A DNA stretch of 34,860 nucleotides from Candidatus Stahliibacteriota bacterium (GTDB lineage Bacteria; Hydrothermota; Tepidihabitantia; B3-TA06), in contig DAOVCF010000003.1 of assembly GCA_030670165.1 (NCBI GenBank), forward strand, positions 1 through 34,860, in the 5' to 3' direction. A program made the position numbers and the translations under genes. The notes under the pieces were generated by a model that saw nothing but the letters and a program-made list of their open reading frames with translations, had not been told where the DNA came from and did no database searches. Positions 12,043 to 19,432 of the stretch are shown piece by piece. Position 1 is the first letter of the stretch; the number at the start of each line of letters is the position of its first letter.

Positions 12043-12753
12043 TTATTGAGCAATTATACCCAGCCACTCCCTTAGAAGGAACTGAACGCGACCTATCAGG
12101 AGCGAAACACGCGACATGACCGTAAGCCCGAAGGTGGCGCCGAATCCCAGCATGATGAATACGATGCCTACCTTGGAAACAGGGCTCAACACACTTTTTT
12201 CTTTGCGTGAGAAGAAGAAGTAGGCGAGGGTGGTGAGTATTCCTATAAGCAGTATAATCGCCCAGATGCCTGGCCAGGGGTTTCCGGGTTGGAACATCTT
12301 AGGCAAAACCAGGGATGCCTTGGTCTGCTCGAATATGGTGGCCTGGAAGATGAGCGGGATTGCGATACCCGATCCTATACCCAGAGCGATTGAGATGGGG
12401 ATTCGCACCAGCCAGGAGACTTTGGGTATGAGTCGTGTGAAGTAAAGGAGTCCTATAGCGATGGGTATTATGAGGATGAGACGCCCTTGCACGAACAAGG
12501 GGCGCAGCGCGATCTGCCATAAGCCCAGCCACCAGGTCAGGGCCAGGCCGTAACCTAATGCAAGGCCCACGAAGAGGTGTTCGGCTACCCTGTAGATCGG
12601 ATTGTCACGGTAGAGTATGCTGAAGATGGCAAGCGTAAGTAAGGCGGCGATCCAAACCCATACGCTCTTTGAGACCGGAAGGAAGACGATGGCTAGAACG
12701 ATCAATACCACTGCGACTGCCAGGAAAATTACTGTAGGGATCCACTTCTTCAT
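12043..12753 (-). CDS. Uncharacterised polytopic membrane protein, last gene of the DUF6754-associated cassette
   Basis: 236 aa with multiple hydrophobic segments. Its ATG overlaps the upstream stop (ATGA) at 12750-12753. Confidence 0.72.
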   Translation of the reverse strand: MKKWIPTVIFLAVAVVLIVLAIVFLPVSKSVWVWIAALLTLAIFSILYRDNPIYRVAEHLFVGLALGYGLALTWWLGLWQIALRPLFVQGRLILIIPIAIGLLYFTRLIPKVSWLVRIPISIALGIGSGIAIPLIFQATIFEQTKASLVLPKMFQPGNPWPGIWAIILLIGILTTLAYFFFSRKEKSVLSPVSKVGIVFIMLGFGATFGLTVMSRVSLLIGRVQFLLREWLGIIAQ

Positions 12754-14297
12754 TTTTTCCTCCCGGTTGTAAAGTAGCTTATGTTGCCGAGGATCACAAA
12801 CAGGATGATTATGAGAAGGGAGGCCGAGAGAGCGGGTAGTGCCTGTGTGCCTCGCAGGAAGATGCTGCGCTGTACTTCTTTCTTAAGCTCCGTTGGTTGC
12901 TCCTCTTCCAGAATCTCGGTTAATTCGGTTCTCAGGATTTCCTCAGCCATAGTCTGGGTGGTTTCAGTACCGGGAAAGTTGATGCTTATCTTGTCTTTCA
13001 AGGCTTCCTTGAGTTCTTGTCTTAATCGGGCTTTTGCTGGCAACTCGGCGGTTAGAATCTCCGGGGGCGGTGGTTGGAAAAGCCCGGTCAAGATATCCCT
13101 TAGTTCAGTATTGATAAGGGCATCCACTTTGGCTTTGATAACCTCTGGTTTCTTCTGCTCTGGCTCGATTTCTAGTCTATCTCCAAGGATTACCCCTAGA
13201 AGTTGCTTTAATTCGATCTTTAGAATGGTGTCCAGCATGACATTAGACACATCGTAGAGGTTGGCGATCGCCAGCATCTTATCTCTGTTCAGTGAAAGCT
13301 CCTGGCCTTCCAAGGTTACGGTGGTGTTTTTGTGTTTTTGTTTTATCACCAGGTTGCGGTAGTAGACGGTGGTGTCAGAAAACTCAATTAAGGAAAGTGG
13401 CTTTTCAAATCTGCTTTTCGATTCTAGGGCTTTTTCTATGCCGGGCAAGTCAAGATCGAACCGCCGGGCCAGACTTACTATGTCGTTTGAATCAGCGTCA
13501 TAGCTCTGCTTTTCTATGGTTACATTGTAGGAGTCCTTTCCAAGGTATTTGACCACCACGTTGGGGTAGTAACGATCCTTTGCCAGGCGTTCGTATTCGG
13601 CGCCCGCCTTCATCCCGGCAAGCATCCCTACGAACTGTTTGGAACCAAGGAAGGGATAGATATCCGCTACTGATACCGCGGTTACGCCTGTAGCCACCGG
13701 AACATCGTAGGGTGTATGGGCGTAGTAGACCCAGTAGCCGTAAAGGCTTGATCCGGTGAAGTCCATTGCAAGGCCTAGGTTGTCGTAGTTCCTTATTCCC
13801 TCCATGACGGGCAGTTCAGACAAAGGGGTGTCGAAGTAATCGGTTGGGAAGACCTGGTCGATAAAGTTGCCCATACCGAGAACTACTGCAACCGGGCTGG
13901 GTTTCCAGCCGAGAAGAACGTAATCTATGCCGTATTCCTTGTTGTGTTCTTCAGCCAGTCTTGTTAGAACCTCAAGGCCGATATCGGTTCCCTGGATAGG
14001 AAGGGCCATAACCAGTAGCGGGATATTCCGAGCGAAGGCGTGACGGATAATCGCTTCGAGTTGAGGTTTAAGCTCGGGTTCGGTCTGGGGATCGAAATCA
14101 ACTGACAGCAAAATGGCCTTTCGTTGACCGTTGGGGTCTATGCTCTCGATGTGATCGAATACGCTTTTTGTCCGTGGCATGGCGCGAACCTTGGACGGGA
14201 GTTTCACCGTGAGTATAAGGGGTACGATCACTGTAACAGCCAGAACCATGTAGATGATGCGGCGATCTATCTTACCTAGTTTTTCCCAGAAGTTCAT
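12750..14297 (-). CDS. Uncharacterised membrane protein with large soluble domain between N- and C-terminal TM segments
   Basis: N-terminal TM (IIYMVLAVTVIVPLILTV), soluble domain (LLSVDFDPQTEPELKPQLEAIIRHAFARNIPLLVMAL..YGIDYVLLGWKPSPVAVVLGMG..), C-terminal TM (ALPALSASLLIIILFVIL). ATGA overlap with the preceding gene. Confidence 0.75.
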   Translation of the reverse strand: MNFWEKLGKIDRRIIYMVLAVTVIVPLILTVKLPSKVRAMPRTKSVFDHIESIDPNGQRKAILLSVDFDPQTEPELKPQLEAIIRHAFARNIPLLVMALPIQGTDIGLEVLTRLAEEHNKEYGIDYVLLGWKPSPVAVVLGMGNFIDQVFPTDYFDTPLSELPVMEGIRNYDNLGLAMDFTGSSLYGYWVYYAHTPYDVPVATGVTAVSVADIYPFLGSKQFVGMLAGMKAGAEYERLAKDRYYPNVVVKYLGKDSYNVTIEKQSYDADSNDIVSLARRFDLDLPGIEKALESKSRFEKPLSLIEFSDTTVYYRNLVIKQKHKNTTVTLEGQELSLNRDKMLAIANLYDVSNVMLDTILKIELKQLLGVILGDRLEIEPEQKKPEVIKAKVDALINTELRDILTGLFQPPPPEILTAELPAKARLRQELKEALKDKISINFPGTETTQTMAEEILRTELTEILEEEQPTELKKEVQRSIFLRGTQALPALSASLLIIILFVILGNISYFTTGRKK

Positions 14298-14956
14298 TTC
14301 GTACCTCCGATGTAGCCGCGTTCAATGCCGAGTATGATCTTCAGTGAGGTTGCGATTCCGCCGAGGCTTGCCCCAAGGAGTATTCCGCGCTTGGCAGCCA
14401 TGTTGGGTACTGAAAGCAGCCATTCGCCGAGGTCTCCGAGAGGTAGCACGTTATAGAAGATGATGGAGAGCATGATGATGAAGGCCGCGATTAGAAGAAG
14501 AATGGAAACCAGCGACTTTGCACGGAACGAACGGTAGGCCGCAGATGCGATGTAGAAGGCAAGCACCGAGAACATCGTGGCTCCTAGAGGAACCATCATG
14601 TAGTTGTAGAAGTTGGCGAAAAGGTAGGTGAAGACCGGGATCTGCTGTCCATGAACGGTTACTGGAAGCCAACTCATGTTTGGAGCGCGTCCGATGATAC
14701 CGATTACGGCCATGATAACTAGTGCACCAAGGGCTATTGGGCTGTAGGCCCATCCTTCCTTCTTGTGCCTGATCTTGGTCGCGTGGTGGGTGACGAAGCT
14801 TGCAAGACCGATGATGAAGGCGAAGGAACCTATAACCCTGAGCCATTCCAGGGCGGTGTTCTTGAAATACTGGGAGAACTGGTGAGGTATGAAGAACTGG
14901 ATCATCAATACGATACCAAGCACCAGGGTTATAGTTAAGGGTATTCTGCGTTTCAT
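14294..14956 (-). CDS. Uncharacterised polytopic membrane protein
   Basis: 220 aa with about six hydrophobic helices. ATGA overlap with 12750..14297. Confidence 0.72.
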   Translation of the reverse strand: MKRRIPLTITLVLGIVLMIQFFIPHQFSQYFKNTALEWLRVIGSFAFIIGLASFVTHHATKIRHKKEGWAYSPIALGALVIMAVIGIIGRAPNMSWLPVTVHGQQIPVFTYLFANFYNYMMVPLGATMFSVLAFYIASAAYRSFRAKSLVSILLLIAAFIIMLSIIFYNVLPLGDLGEWLLSVPNMAAKRGILLGASLGGIATSLKIILGIERGYIGGTK

Positions 14957-14965
14957 GCCGCCCCC

Positions 14966-16111
14966 TTAGACCGAGGTGACGATTTTGGTTGCGAATTCAA
15001 GACCGAATAGAGCAAGAATAGTCAGTACAACAAGGAGTATGCCGATGGTGGCTTTACCCCAGTCCTGGGCCTTGATGGTTCCCACAAGATTGGGTTCCCG
15101 TGAAAGATATGCCGAGGCCGCGTAGAGCTCCTCCCCGATGATGGTGTAGTCGCAGGCGGTGATAAAGAAGGGCAGCTGTGCCGAGGCGTCGGTGCCCGCG
15201 ATCTGGATCGCACCCGAGATGTTACCGGTCTCGGCAAGAAGCAATGATTCCGCGTAGAACATTCCCAGGAAGAAGTTGGTGGCTGGTTTTTCACGAAGCA
15301 TTATCCCGTTGACTGCGGCAACGTAGGCAAACTGACTGGTGGTTACGAAGAATACACTGTCCGGGTTGAATGCGTCAGGACGACCTGCATCAGAGTAAGC
15401 TTCTTTAACGATTTCCCGGGCAACGGTGTACACGATAGGATCTTTATTTGGAACAATGATGGGGGTGTCGTACTGGGCCGCCTTCTTGGCTATCCCTTGC
15501 AGGATGTTAAGCGCCGCGATTGTTGCGATATCACCGATGCCCGAGAGTCCGGGCACGAACAGAATGGGGCGCCCCATCTCTGTGGCGCGGCCTACCGCCT
15601 CGTCAATAGCTTCCAACCCGGCGATCTTTCTGAGAAACAGATTCTTGCCTCGCTTCGCCTGAGAGATGAAGAACGTAACCAGAGAGAAGAAGAAGATCAT
15701 CGCAACCAGAACGTTGATCCTGCCTATATGGAACCACTGTCCAGCGGCCTGGGTTGCAGCCGAGGGCTCTGATACAATCGTTTCTTCCCCGCGAACCGCA
15801 GCCACCTTGTAGGTATAGTCCGTGAAGTTTGCGATCCCTCCGTCATCCACGATACTATCCGTACCTGGTGCGATAACCGCCACTGCTTGGAACTCTCCTC
15901 CTTCTTTAGAACGCAGGATGATGTAATCATCCAGGAGCTTGTCGTCCGGTGAAAGCTTCCAGCGTACTACCAGCTGATGACCTTCGTCGTTGGGAAAGTC
16001 TGAGACTTGGACTTCTGTCGCCGGTCTGATTGGCGGCAGCAGCTCTGCCAGCGAGTCCACTGGCGGTTCCGCCTGGGAGAGGAGAAGCGGAATTAGCATA
16101 AGTAAGGTCAA
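14966..16111 (-). CDS. DUF6754-like protein: signal peptide, fibronectin-III-like domain, TM, soluble domain, C-terminal TM
   Basis: Fn3-like stretch VVRWKLSPDDKLLDDYIILRS...YKVAAV, then GRPILFVPGLSGIGDIATIAALNIL..DTPIIVPNKDPIVYTVAREIV..FAYVAAVNGIMLREKPATNFFLGMFYAESLLLAETG..GAIQIAGTDASAQLPFFITACDYTIIGEELYAASAYLS. DUF6754 named from recalled motif pattern, not searched. Confidence 0.7.
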   Translation of the reverse strand: MTLLMLIPLLLSQAEPPVDSLAELLPPIRPATEVQVSDFPNDEGHQLVVRWKLSPDDKLLDDYIILRSKEGGEFQAVAVIAPGTDSIVDDGGIANFTDYTYKVAAVRGEETIVSEPSAATQAAGQWFHIGRINVLVAMIFFFSLVTFFISQAKRGKNLFLRKIAGLEAIDEAVGRATEMGRPILFVPGLSGIGDIATIAALNILQGIAKKAAQYDTPIIVPNKDPIVYTVAREIVKEAYSDAGRPDAFNPDSVFFVTTSQFAYVAAVNGIMLREKPATNFFLGMFYAESLLLAETGNISGAIQIAGTDASAQLPFFITACDYTIIGEELYAASAYLSREPNLVGTIKAQDWGKATIGILLVVLTILALFGLEFATKIVTSV

Positions 16112-16120
16112 ATGCCCCTC

Positions 16121-16429
16121 CTATTTAAAGGCTTCTTTACATTTGCACGGCTTTGACCCGCACCGCGGGCAGCCCTTTCCGTATTTTGCTCTGGCTTTTT
16201 CCTCAAGGTCTATTCCAGCAAGATTGGCCAAAGTGCACAGCCACGCGAGAACATCGGCAAACTCCTCCCCTTGAGCCTTTTTGTCTGCGTACCTTATTGC
16301 CCGTGCCAATTCACCGACTTCCTCACTGAACCACACAAACGTTCGTGCCAGCCCACGGCCAGAATCCTTGTGGAAGAACTCTTCCTTAATCAAATCTTGA
16401 AACTCACGTACTCCAAGCTTATCTTCCAT
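16121..16429 (-). CDS. MazG-like nucleotide pyrophosphohydrolase with C-terminal CPRCGxxPCKC zinc-knuckle-like tail
   Basis: FSEEVGELARAIRY...EEFADVLAWLCTLANLAGIDLEE matches the MazG EExxE...EExxD pattern. Tail CPRCGSKPCKC. Confidence 0.82.
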   Translation of the reverse strand: MEDKLGVREFQDLIKEEFFHKDSGRGLARTFVWFSEEVGELARAIRYADKKAQGEEFADVLAWLCTLANLAGIDLEEKARAKYGKGCPRCGSKPCKCKEAFK

Positions 16430-16437
16430 TGGCGCTT

Positions 16438-16465
16438 ATGATACGGTTCAGCGGCGCGTTGTCAA
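16438..16465 (-). promoter_or_regulatory. Putative promoter of the MazG/DUF6754 cassette (TTGACA-N16-TATCAT), -10 box ending 8 nt before ATG
   Basis: Minus strand: TTGACA (16465-16460), 16-nt spacer, TATCAT (16443-16438). ATG at 16429. Confidence 0.55.
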
Positions 16466-16621: not shown

Positions 16622-18043
16622 CTATTCGACCAGTACGACCTTTCCTGCGGTCGCACTGCCCGAAGAGGAACGGATAAAGTAGACGCCAAGCTCGTAACAC
16701 CCGTAACACCCGTAACACTTCCCCCAGGTGATCATTCCAGATGACTCGGTAGCGTGCAGCTCGTCCACCTTGCGGCCAGTTGCGTCAAAGATGGAAGCAT
16801 GAAAGCCTTGTGGGTGATCCGCGTAGCGCAGTACAATCTGTGGGCCGATGGAAGTTACCAGCTTCCAGTTTGGTGCTTCAACAACCCGATCCTCAACAAC
16901 AGCATCCACGTAACCCAGGGAATCGGTCTTGATGAGCCAAAGATCCCTTTCCTCTGCACCAGAAGGGTGAGTAGACCCCACGATGATATAACCCCCGTCG
17001 CTTGTTGCTTGAACACAGCTTCCATAGGCATGGCCTTCTCCTTTATAGGTTCTTTCCCAGCGAGGAACACCACCCAGATTCGTCTTAATCAAAACCGCCT
17101 CATCCTCAGGGTTTGACGCCACTATCACGCAGCCATCAGAAGCCAGGGCCATCGAATTGTACCAACCGTCATAATCTACCCAAATCTGGGGCGTAGGGTA
17201 TATGTAGCCATCTTCATCCGCTAAGAATAGACCTAAAGCAAAACGCATAGGCATTATTTCCCAGACCCCACTAATCATGTAATCTCCATCTTCTTTTTCA
17301 CGTACCACAAACCCTTCCGATGCCCCTCCTTCAATGTCATCAAAGGCAGCCGTCCAAAGGGTATCTCCCTGATCGTCAACCTTTAAAAGCCAAAGATCAT
17401 GTCCATATTCTTCTAAGCTGGAGGTATAGCCTGTAACTATATACCCACCATCAGAAGCCTCTTGAACGCAGTGGCCTTCATCATACCATTCTCCTCCATA
17501 GCTCCTCTCCCAAAGAATCTCTCCAAGCGAATCCAGTTTTACTAGCCAAAGATCGCTGTGTTTTCTGCCAGTAATGATGTAACCGTTATCTGTGGTTTGT
17601 TCTATCCAGTTACCTCCTTGCCCCCAGGAGCCTGTTCCCTCATATGTTTGAGTCCACAAGGTGTCTCCAAGGAAATCAGTCTTTAGAAGCCAGGTTATGG
17701 GTAGTCCTGAATCGACCGGGAAAGTCCCTCCAAGGATGATGTAGGCGCCGTCAAAGGTTTGACGCACCCGGAACCCCCAATCCCGGTTCTTGCTTCCGTA
17801 TATCTTTGTCCAGACCGTATCCCCCAAAGGATCGGTTTTTAAAAGCCAGAGATCGCTCTCTCCCGCACCGAATGAGCGAGTATATCCTGTGATAACGTAA
17901 CCTCCGTCATCTGTTTGCTCAACACATCGACCTGCATCGAAACCTACACCGCCGTAGGTGCGTGTCCAGCCGGCGTAGATTGTCTTAGGTATGACGGCAA
18001 ACGTTGTAGCCGACAGTAGAATGAATAAGGGCTTCCTACACAT
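16622..18043 (-). CDS. Secreted repeat protein, paralogous in repeat type to 5220..6374, with T9SS-like C-terminal domain
   Basis: Start re-assigned to ATG at 18043 (GGAGGATGCAATG; MCRKPLFILLSATTFAVIP). Repeats WTRTYGG..D.G.CVEQTDDGGYVITGYTRSFGAGESDLWLLKTD. C-terminus IFDATGRKVDEL..GVYFIRSSSGSATAGKVVLVE. Confidence 0.82.
   Translation of the reverse strand: MCRKPLFILLSATTFAVIPKTIYAGWTRTYGGVGFDAGRCVEQTDDGGYVITGYTRSFGAGESDLWLLKTDPLGDTVWTKIYGSKNRDWGFRVRQTFDGAYIILGGTFPVDSGLPITWLLKTDFLGDTLWTQTYEGTGSWGQGGNWIEQTTDNGYIITGRKHSDLWLVKLDSLGEILWERSYGGEWYDEGHCVQEASDGGYIVTGYTSSLEEYGHDLWLLKVDDQGDTLWTAAFDDIEGGASEGFVVREKEDGDYMISGVWEIMPMRFALGLFLADEDGYIYPTPQIWVDYDGWYNSMALASDGCVIVASNPEDEAVLIKTNLGGVPRWERTYKGEGHAYGSCVQATSDGGYIIVGSTHPSGAEERDLWLIKTDSLGYVDAVVEDRVVEAPNWKLVTSIGPQIVLRYADHPQGFHASIFDATGRKVDELHATESSGMITWGKCYGCYGCYELGVYFIRSSSGSATAGKVVLVE
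16692..16718 (-). repeat. 9-bp tandem repeat GTGTTACGG (three units), encodes CYGCYGCYELG
   Basis: Plus strand tCGTAACAC CCGTAACAC CCGTAACAC. Confidence 0.9.
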
Positions 18044-18128
18044 TGCATCCTCCTGGTTTTTGCCGGTTGCCCGGCGTTTACCTGAGCCAAAGACCATCTT
18101 GTAAAAACCGCTCTATGTCATTTTATCT

Positions 18129-18686: not shown

Positions 18687-19432
18687 TCATCCTTCGGTAG
18701 CGAAGTCGGTCTTCTTTGGCAAATACTGCCTGACCAGACCATTGGTGTGCTCGTTGGTTCCTCTCTGCCATGAAGAGTAAGGTTCGTAGAAGAAGCACCG
18801 GATGTCTGTTTCTTTAGAGATGACTTCATGCTCAGCATTCTCTGGGCCATTGTCAAGAGTTAGAGTGCGGCGAGCGTCTTTTGGAAAGCGGATCAAACAG
18901 TTGATCATCGCCTGGGAGGTTAAAGAAGCAGTTCTGGCATCCAACCTCTCGACCTGAACCAACCTGCTTGAGCGTTCTACCATGGTTAATATAGCCGCCC
19001 TGCTCCGGCGTGAGATCAAGGTGTCTGCCTCCCAGTCCCCAAACCTAGCTCTGGTCTCAACTTCAGACGGCCGGTGCTCTATCCCTATCCTGCCCGCTAT
19101 CTGTTCCGGCGAGGAGTCTTCCTTGAGCTTGGACACCACGTAATCCCTGATCTTATCGTTCTTTAATCGCATCCTGCGGCTCGCCTTTGACCTGCGCTTA
19201 TCCGCTCGCACCTGAGCACGGTGGTCTATGTAGGAGTGGTGGACAGGCGATCTGTTGCGCCGCAACTCACGCGAGATGGTAGAGGGACTCCTGCCTAAAA
19301 CACGGTCCATCTCTCGAATAGATCGCCCGTCTCTACGCATCGTATCTATACCCTATGAGCGCATAAAGCGCTCAAGGGGCACGCTGTCACCTCACGCTCC
19401 TTGAGTCCAAGATGTTGGTATCTTGAGTGCAT
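18687..19432 (-). pseudogene. Degraded IS30-family transposase
   Basis: SIREMDRVLGRSPSTISRELRRN (IS30 HTH), RFGDWEADTLI, LTLDNGPENAEHE, YSSWQRGTNEHTNGLVRQYLPKKTDF. N-terminus MHSRYQHLGLKEREV in another frame ends at a stop, SPEQIAGRI joins directly to GIEHRPSEVE, and the C-terminus is cut after KKTDFATEG. Confidence 0.87.
19356..19374. repeat. Perfect 7-bp hairpin TGAGCGC-ATAAA-GCGCTCA at the break in the IS30 N-terminus
   Basis: Read directly from the sequence. Confidence 0.85.

Follow-up and report, generated by a model that had tools for sequence, protein, structure and literature searches.

Do the five tightly packed genes at positions 12043–16429 of the window, the whole 34,860-nucleotide stretch analysed here, encode a single system, and what could such a system do? 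All five open reading frames lie co-oriented on the minus strand and are designated A to E. Gene A (16121–16429) encodes a MazG-like protein of 102 aa, and B (14966–16111) a DUF6754 protein of 381 aa with a TTG start codon. C (14294–14956), D (12750–14297) and E (12043–12753) encode membrane proteins of 220, 515 and 236 aa, respectively. ATGA overlaps join C to D at 14294–14297 and D to E at 12750–12753, while the remaining two intergenic gaps measure 9 nt each. An earlier sequence-only reading of this DNA had given the same coordinates and both overlaps exactly. Its family calls for the first two genes also held. A matches the MazG family PF03819 with 38 bits (2e-9), above the 22-bit cut-off, and B matches DUF6754 (PF20539) with 399.6 bits (5.8e-120; cut-off 27 bits) along profile positions 2–256 of 257, as a full-length member. 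The same reading had placed a promoter at 16438–16465. The site (TTGACA-16-TATCAT, running from 16465 to 16438 on the minus strand) agrees with the consensus at 11 of 12 positions and lies 8 nt upstream of the mazG-like start codon. Promoter-like sites are no commoner in the region than chance would give (4 observed, 4.0 expected), and the proposed promoter is therefore backed solely by its quality and position. Elsewhere in the window, an ORF at 16622–18097 was judged by eye to encode a secreted protein with repeats whose C-terminal segment resembles a sorting tail, and an apparently broken IS30-type transposase-like ORF was likewise recognised at 18687–19340.

The AF2 model of B (mean pLDDT 91.8) presents, in order, an Fn3 domain, a transmembrane (TM) helix, an alpha/beta domain and a second TM helix, with a hydrophobic N-terminus ahead of the Fn3 domain. 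The Fn3 domain (residues 32–122; 15746–16018, minus strand), also named in the sequence-only reading, was recovered both by a profile search of the PDB, which matched Fn3 domains, and by Foldseek with a probability of 1.00; it is predicted to be extracytoplasmic. Beyond Fn3, Foldseek of B against the PDB returned spurious long alignments with an rmsd of about 19 A, which were discarded. The DUF6754 domain (residues 160–340; 15092–15634, minus strand) is modelled as a Rossmann-like alpha/beta fold of six beta-alpha units, and neither the profile search nor Foldseek against the PDB yielded a convincing solved structural relative for it. The topologies of B, C, D and E were obtained by applying the charge rule to hydropathy segments. 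Because basic residues follow the first TM helix of B, the positive-inside rule places its DUF6754 core most likely in the cytosol rather than outside the cytoplasm. This domain has many invariant residues in the alignment; several of them (Q260, E288, T307, Q312 and G326-E327-E328) lie near the C-terminal ends of the strands, which suggests a ligand pocket in the modelled fold.

For the other three proteins, Pfam gave no family at E 0.1, and no NCBIfam model scored above its cut-off. C is predicted to contain six TM helices with both termini inside. A weak match of C to the exosortase XrtQ (E 0.02; 14 bits against a cut-off of 270) was rejected. For D, the sequence-only reading had described a 515-aa protein with a large soluble domain between terminal TM segments. 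That architecture stands, but the size is atypical: the family typically measures about 280 aa, and the window's copy carries an insert of roughly 240 aa (residues 242–482; 12852–13574, minus strand) that is missing from nearly all other D proteins in a 76-sequence alignment, with a column occupancy near 0. Weak internal duplications occur within this insert (residues 259–283/327–351 and 412–436/442–466). The AF2 model of a 280-aa orthologue (mean pLDDT 95.5) displays a TM helix, an alpha/beta domain and a second TM helix, and the window's D is read in the same way with the lineage insert ahead of its last TM helix. The soluble domain of D is most likely extracytoplasmic, although its charge pattern is less clear-cut. 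Foldseek of this domain against the PDB found no convincing solved relative and nothing with E below 0.001; weak Rossmann matches of the glycosyltransferase-like type (TMq about 0.33) were not read as function. In the models of B and D, the six beta-alpha units of the soluble domain are arranged in the same sequence, but profile and sequence comparison did not support homology, and profile comparison likewise gave none between C and E. From its hydropathy, E is a polytopic protein with 6–8 hydrophobic segments, and it carries a strongly conserved C-terminal motif (FGA.FG.TVM.R.SLLIGR.QFL).

The B-C-D-E order recurs in nearly every relative examined, across roughly twelve phyla. Iterative HMM searches of 40 loci from the same class recovered 47 copies of B, 44 each of C and D, and 42 of E, in the order B-C-D-E. 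Loci from named genomes, 80 in all, contained 106 copies of B, 98 of C, 94 of D and 90 of E; a single order was seen, and most loci had the complete set of four if the contig reached far enough. These loci belong to Stahlbacteria/WOR-3, Poribacteria, Brocadia and other Planctomycetota, Zixibacteria, Eisenbacteria, Latescibacterota, Armatimonadota, Cloacimonadota, Edwardsbacteria, Coatesbacteria and CSSED10-310. Cassettes are often arranged in tandem in two or three copies; the window's genome holds a second B-C-D-E cassette, and its relatives carry between 1 and 7 copies of DUF6754 each. Across 90 complete cassettes, the distance matrices of B, C, D and E correlate pairwise with r values of 0.81–0.88, compared with a shuffled maximum of 0.17. 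C-D and D-E are the gene pairs that most often overlap or abut, typically with a 4-nt overlap. The shared order, the co-divergence and these overlaps together indicate that the four products are parts of one thing. The conserved multi-subunit membrane system suspected in the sequence-only reading is supported, and it is apparently undescribed. The partners of DUF6754 do accompany it elsewhere, in the same-class and in the named loci, and that reading has withstood its own refutation test. MazG, which that reading had counted as an integral part of the cassette, has to be removed from it: 16 MazG matches stand against 47 of DUF6754 in the same-class loci, and the 80 named loci have 11 of the former and 106 of the latter. 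It is an optional neighbour of some cassette groups in the host lineage, outside the conserved core. The system appears chromosomal, since no relative was found in the viral contigs or plasmids searched, and a mobile or phage origin was rejected on the same ground.

Some variants of the cassette were also recorded. Two consecutive B genes are present in loci L050, L056, L119 and L112, suggesting exchangeable B subunits, and an additional D follows E (B-C-D-E-D) in L119 (6901–7779) and L129 (5130–6047). Behind the cassettes of one paralogue group (L052, L059, L070, L140, L157 and L158) come a DUF4388 protein and a constant set of small proteins; some of the latter are membrane-like, and one resembles a TolQ/MotA-type protein.

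In other phyla, three genes are repeatedly encountered upstream of B, encoding a small protein (SM), a MutL protein (PF13941) and a protein of 375 aa termed LIP. The sequence-only reading missed these components, which are encoded away from the window and share an operon with B-C-D-E in other phyla; in the window's genome, contig 135 carries MutL and SM, and contig 195 carries LIP. The order SM-MutL-LIP-B-C-D-E, whole or nearly so, was observed in Planctomycetota (most loci examined), Brocadiales, Effluviviaceae-type genomes and Desulfuromonas sp. SDB, as well as in two loci of the host phylum (L203 and L204), while Armatimonadota display the order MutL-LIP-B. The system's MutL exceeds the cut-off of PF13941 with 431.9 bits, which assigns it to the GlmL superfamily, and the copy in the window's genome retains both ASKHA phosphate motifs (DCGSTTTK and DIGGATTD). 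From this family membership and these motifs, it is predicted to be a GlmL-like ASKHA ATPase. LIP matches no Pfam family above the cut-off; its weak matches point to barrel-sandwich and KOW-like portions, and it is predicted to be a barrel-sandwich plus alpha/beta plus KOW-like protein. Fusions of MutL and LIP of about 950 aa exist, a sign that the two proteins act together. A genome may carry up to seven cassettes and usually has one or two MutL/LIP copies.

Within the window's class, the neighbours of SM and MutL are glycine-cleavage genes and not B-C-D-E. SM-MutL follows such genes in L179, L182, L186, L188 and L203 of the host phylum and in L112 of Desulfuromonas sp. SDB; the GcvP2-type protein of L112 was confirmed by Pfam, and the calls at the other loci were judged by size and sequence. 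In L203 and L204, the B-C-D-E arrays have lipoate-protein-ligase-like genes at their flanks. These glycine-cleavage and lipoate neighbours may reflect an operon habit or hint at a second role of MutL-SM. Lipoylation of LIP was considered on account of them and ruled out, as the candidate lysine is not conserved. A second, divergent pair, MutL2-LIP2, exists as a fusion in some genomes and adjoins no B-C-D-E cassette; it was located in L189 (6760–9612), L190 (7686–10562) and L191 (7921–10878), with further pairs in L198–L202.

The distribution of these genes across genomes points in the same direction. The system reaches almost all of the WOR-3/Stahlbacteria-type phylum and is scattered in Planctomycetota and other groups. 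DUF6754, MutL and LIP were each detected in 128 of the 133 host-phylum genomes, and D in 130. Both genomes of one genus (g62), which are 94–95% complete, are devoid of DUF6754, D, MutL and LIP, and the four were evidently lost together. Two genomes of this phylum (G051 and G126) keep MutL and LIP and are without DUF6754. MutL and LIP were each found in 30 of the 31 genomes from other phyla that had been selected for carrying DUF6754. Planctomycetota provide the best test of co-occurrence, since the system is patchy there. Among their 195 genomes, B and LIP occur together in 55 and are both absent from 134, with B alone in 5 and LIP alone in 1. The corresponding counts for B and MutL are 57 with both, 133 with neither, 3 with B only and 2 with MutL only; the three genomes carrying DUF6754 without MutL are G190, G201 and G333. 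LIP and MutL coincide in 56 genomes and are jointly absent from 136, with MutL alone in 3 and LIP alone in none. Fisher values near 1e-41 for these tables ignore phylogeny and overstate significance, so that only the pattern should be trusted. The genes are also close to each other in this phylum: B and LIP lie at most 4 kb apart in 37 of the 55 genomes, and LIP and MutL in 46 of the 56.

By these genomic comparisons, the grouping of SM, MutL, LIP, B, C, D and E as one probable system is well supported. How they might work together is a more tentative matter. We give even chances to an arrangement in which B, C, D and E form an inner-membrane complex that works with a cytosolic module of MutL, LIP and SM. 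We infer the contacts and the direction of force within this machine as follows. The four membrane proteins would be subunits of a single inner-membrane complex, with the Fn3 domain of B and the domain of D facing the periplasm and the pocket domain of B in the cytosol. MutL would use ATP and, by way of LIP, act on the pocket domain of B in the cytosol, while SM would perhaps attach the MutL-LIP pair to the membrane complex. The ATP cycle of MutL could then switch or drive the membrane assembly, and the outcome would most likely be the moving or assembling of an envelope component. The presence of several B-C-D-E paralogues with one MutL-LIP pair would correspond to one ATPase serving complexes of different specificity. 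A bolder proposal, which is possible but falls somewhat short of probable, is that these proteins constitute an unrecognised class of ATP-driven envelope machine, in which an ASKHA (GlmL-like) ATPase, not of the ABC, AAA or rotary type, would power a four-subunit inner-membrane complex through LIP as a dedicated adaptor.

Other explanations assign these proteins different roles. B-C-D-E could export a surface polymer or surface proteins, or serve as a platform for their assembly, with paralogues differing by substrate and MutL-LIP serving as a maturation factor and not as a motor. Some paralogues do adjoin a Wza-like SLBB/Poly_export gene and others a Wzi-family gene, one adjoins a C25 peptidase with a sorting tail, a phosphomannomutase gene follows the window's cassette, and both D and the Fn3 domain are predicted to be periplasmic. 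These neighbours lean towards envelope export or assembly and are not constant; they vary by clade, most cassettes are without them, and no transporter, polymerase or glycosyltransferase family was detected in B–E with Pfam or NCBIfam, which leaves this explanation unlikely. An ordinary operon of unrelated housekeeping membrane proteins would agree with the lineage-specific mazG, manB and efp neighbours, but it is contradicted by the same order across many phyla, the co-divergence, the tandem duplication as a unit and the joint loss, and we consider it very improbable indeed.

The ancestry of MutL raises a further alternative, a membrane-bound corrinoid or radical-enzyme system in which MutL would be a GlmL-type reactivase and B-C-D-E its membrane client. 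GlmL/MutL has been described as a chaperone that reactivates glutamate mutase (PMC4682846), and the match to PF13941 (432 bits) places the system's MutL in the GlmL superfamily. Nevertheless, it scores far below the GlmL equivalog NF040745 (238 bits against 475; 227 for the copy in the window's genome) and the Or-4 model (210 against 600), and it is also under the NCBI cut-off for the GlmL family. No B12-dependent mutase gene was recognised among the operons examined, and B–E have no match to a cobalamin-binding family in Pfam or NCBIfam. In the mapped loci, whose neighbours were only partly scanned with Pfam, no glutamate mutase gene (GlmS/GlmE) was recognised beside MutL; its neighbours there are LIP, B–E, glycine-cleavage or unrelated genes. 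This alternative is improbable. So, distinctly, is a signalling complex in which the cytosolic pocket of B would bind a nucleotide or metabolite, D would sense the periplasm and MutL-LIP would be downstream effectors. The invariant residues clustered near the strand ends of a Rossmann-like fold, together with the MazG and DUF4388 neighbours in some clades, are compatible with it, but such regulatory neighbours are clade-specific and the conserved set contains no kinase, cyclase, receiver or DNA-binding domain.

The seven-component system is present in almost every genome of one phylum, in nearly a third of the sampled Planctomycetota and in members of many other deep-branching phyla, and a system of this breadth with no assigned function represents a large blank in bacterial envelope biology. 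Its co-occurrence with a GlmL-like ATPase and LIP offers a first handle on mechanism, and some Planctomycetota can be grown and manipulated, which makes the system testable. The results also suggest that a MutL/GlmL-type annotation in these phyla need not imply glutamate mutase.

In comparison with known systems, B is a DUF6754 (PF20539) protein over its full length and passes the cut-off with 400 bits; Pfam assigns no function to this family, and no family record found includes the partners C, D and E or the link to MutL-LIP. A literature search, with most subscription journals and preprints outside it, found no paper naming DUF6754, PF20539 or PF13941 and no account of the seven-protein system. 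With the GlmL/MutL proteins (PF13941; NF040745, NF040744, TIGR01319), the system's MutL shares the ASKHA ATPase family and the phosphate motifs, but it lies below every NCBI cut-off, has no recognised glutamate or ornithine mutase beside it in the mapped loci, and has its ties to LIP, with which it may be fused, and to four membrane proteins. ABC exporters and tripartite efflux systems likewise combine polytopic membrane subunits, periplasmic domains and an ATP user; no ABC ATPase domain was found in B–E, MutL, LIP or SM, and the candidate ATPase is of the ASKHA type. PilM-PilN-PilO and MreB-MreC-MreD pair a cytosolic actin-like (ASKHA-fold) ATPase with bitopic and polytopic envelope proteins. 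No homology to PilN/PilO or MreC/MreD was detected: Pfam at E 0.1 gave nothing for C, D or E, and none of the three passed the cut-off of an NCBIfam family. The likeness of these complexes to B-C-D-E with MutL is one of architecture, an analogy and not a membership.
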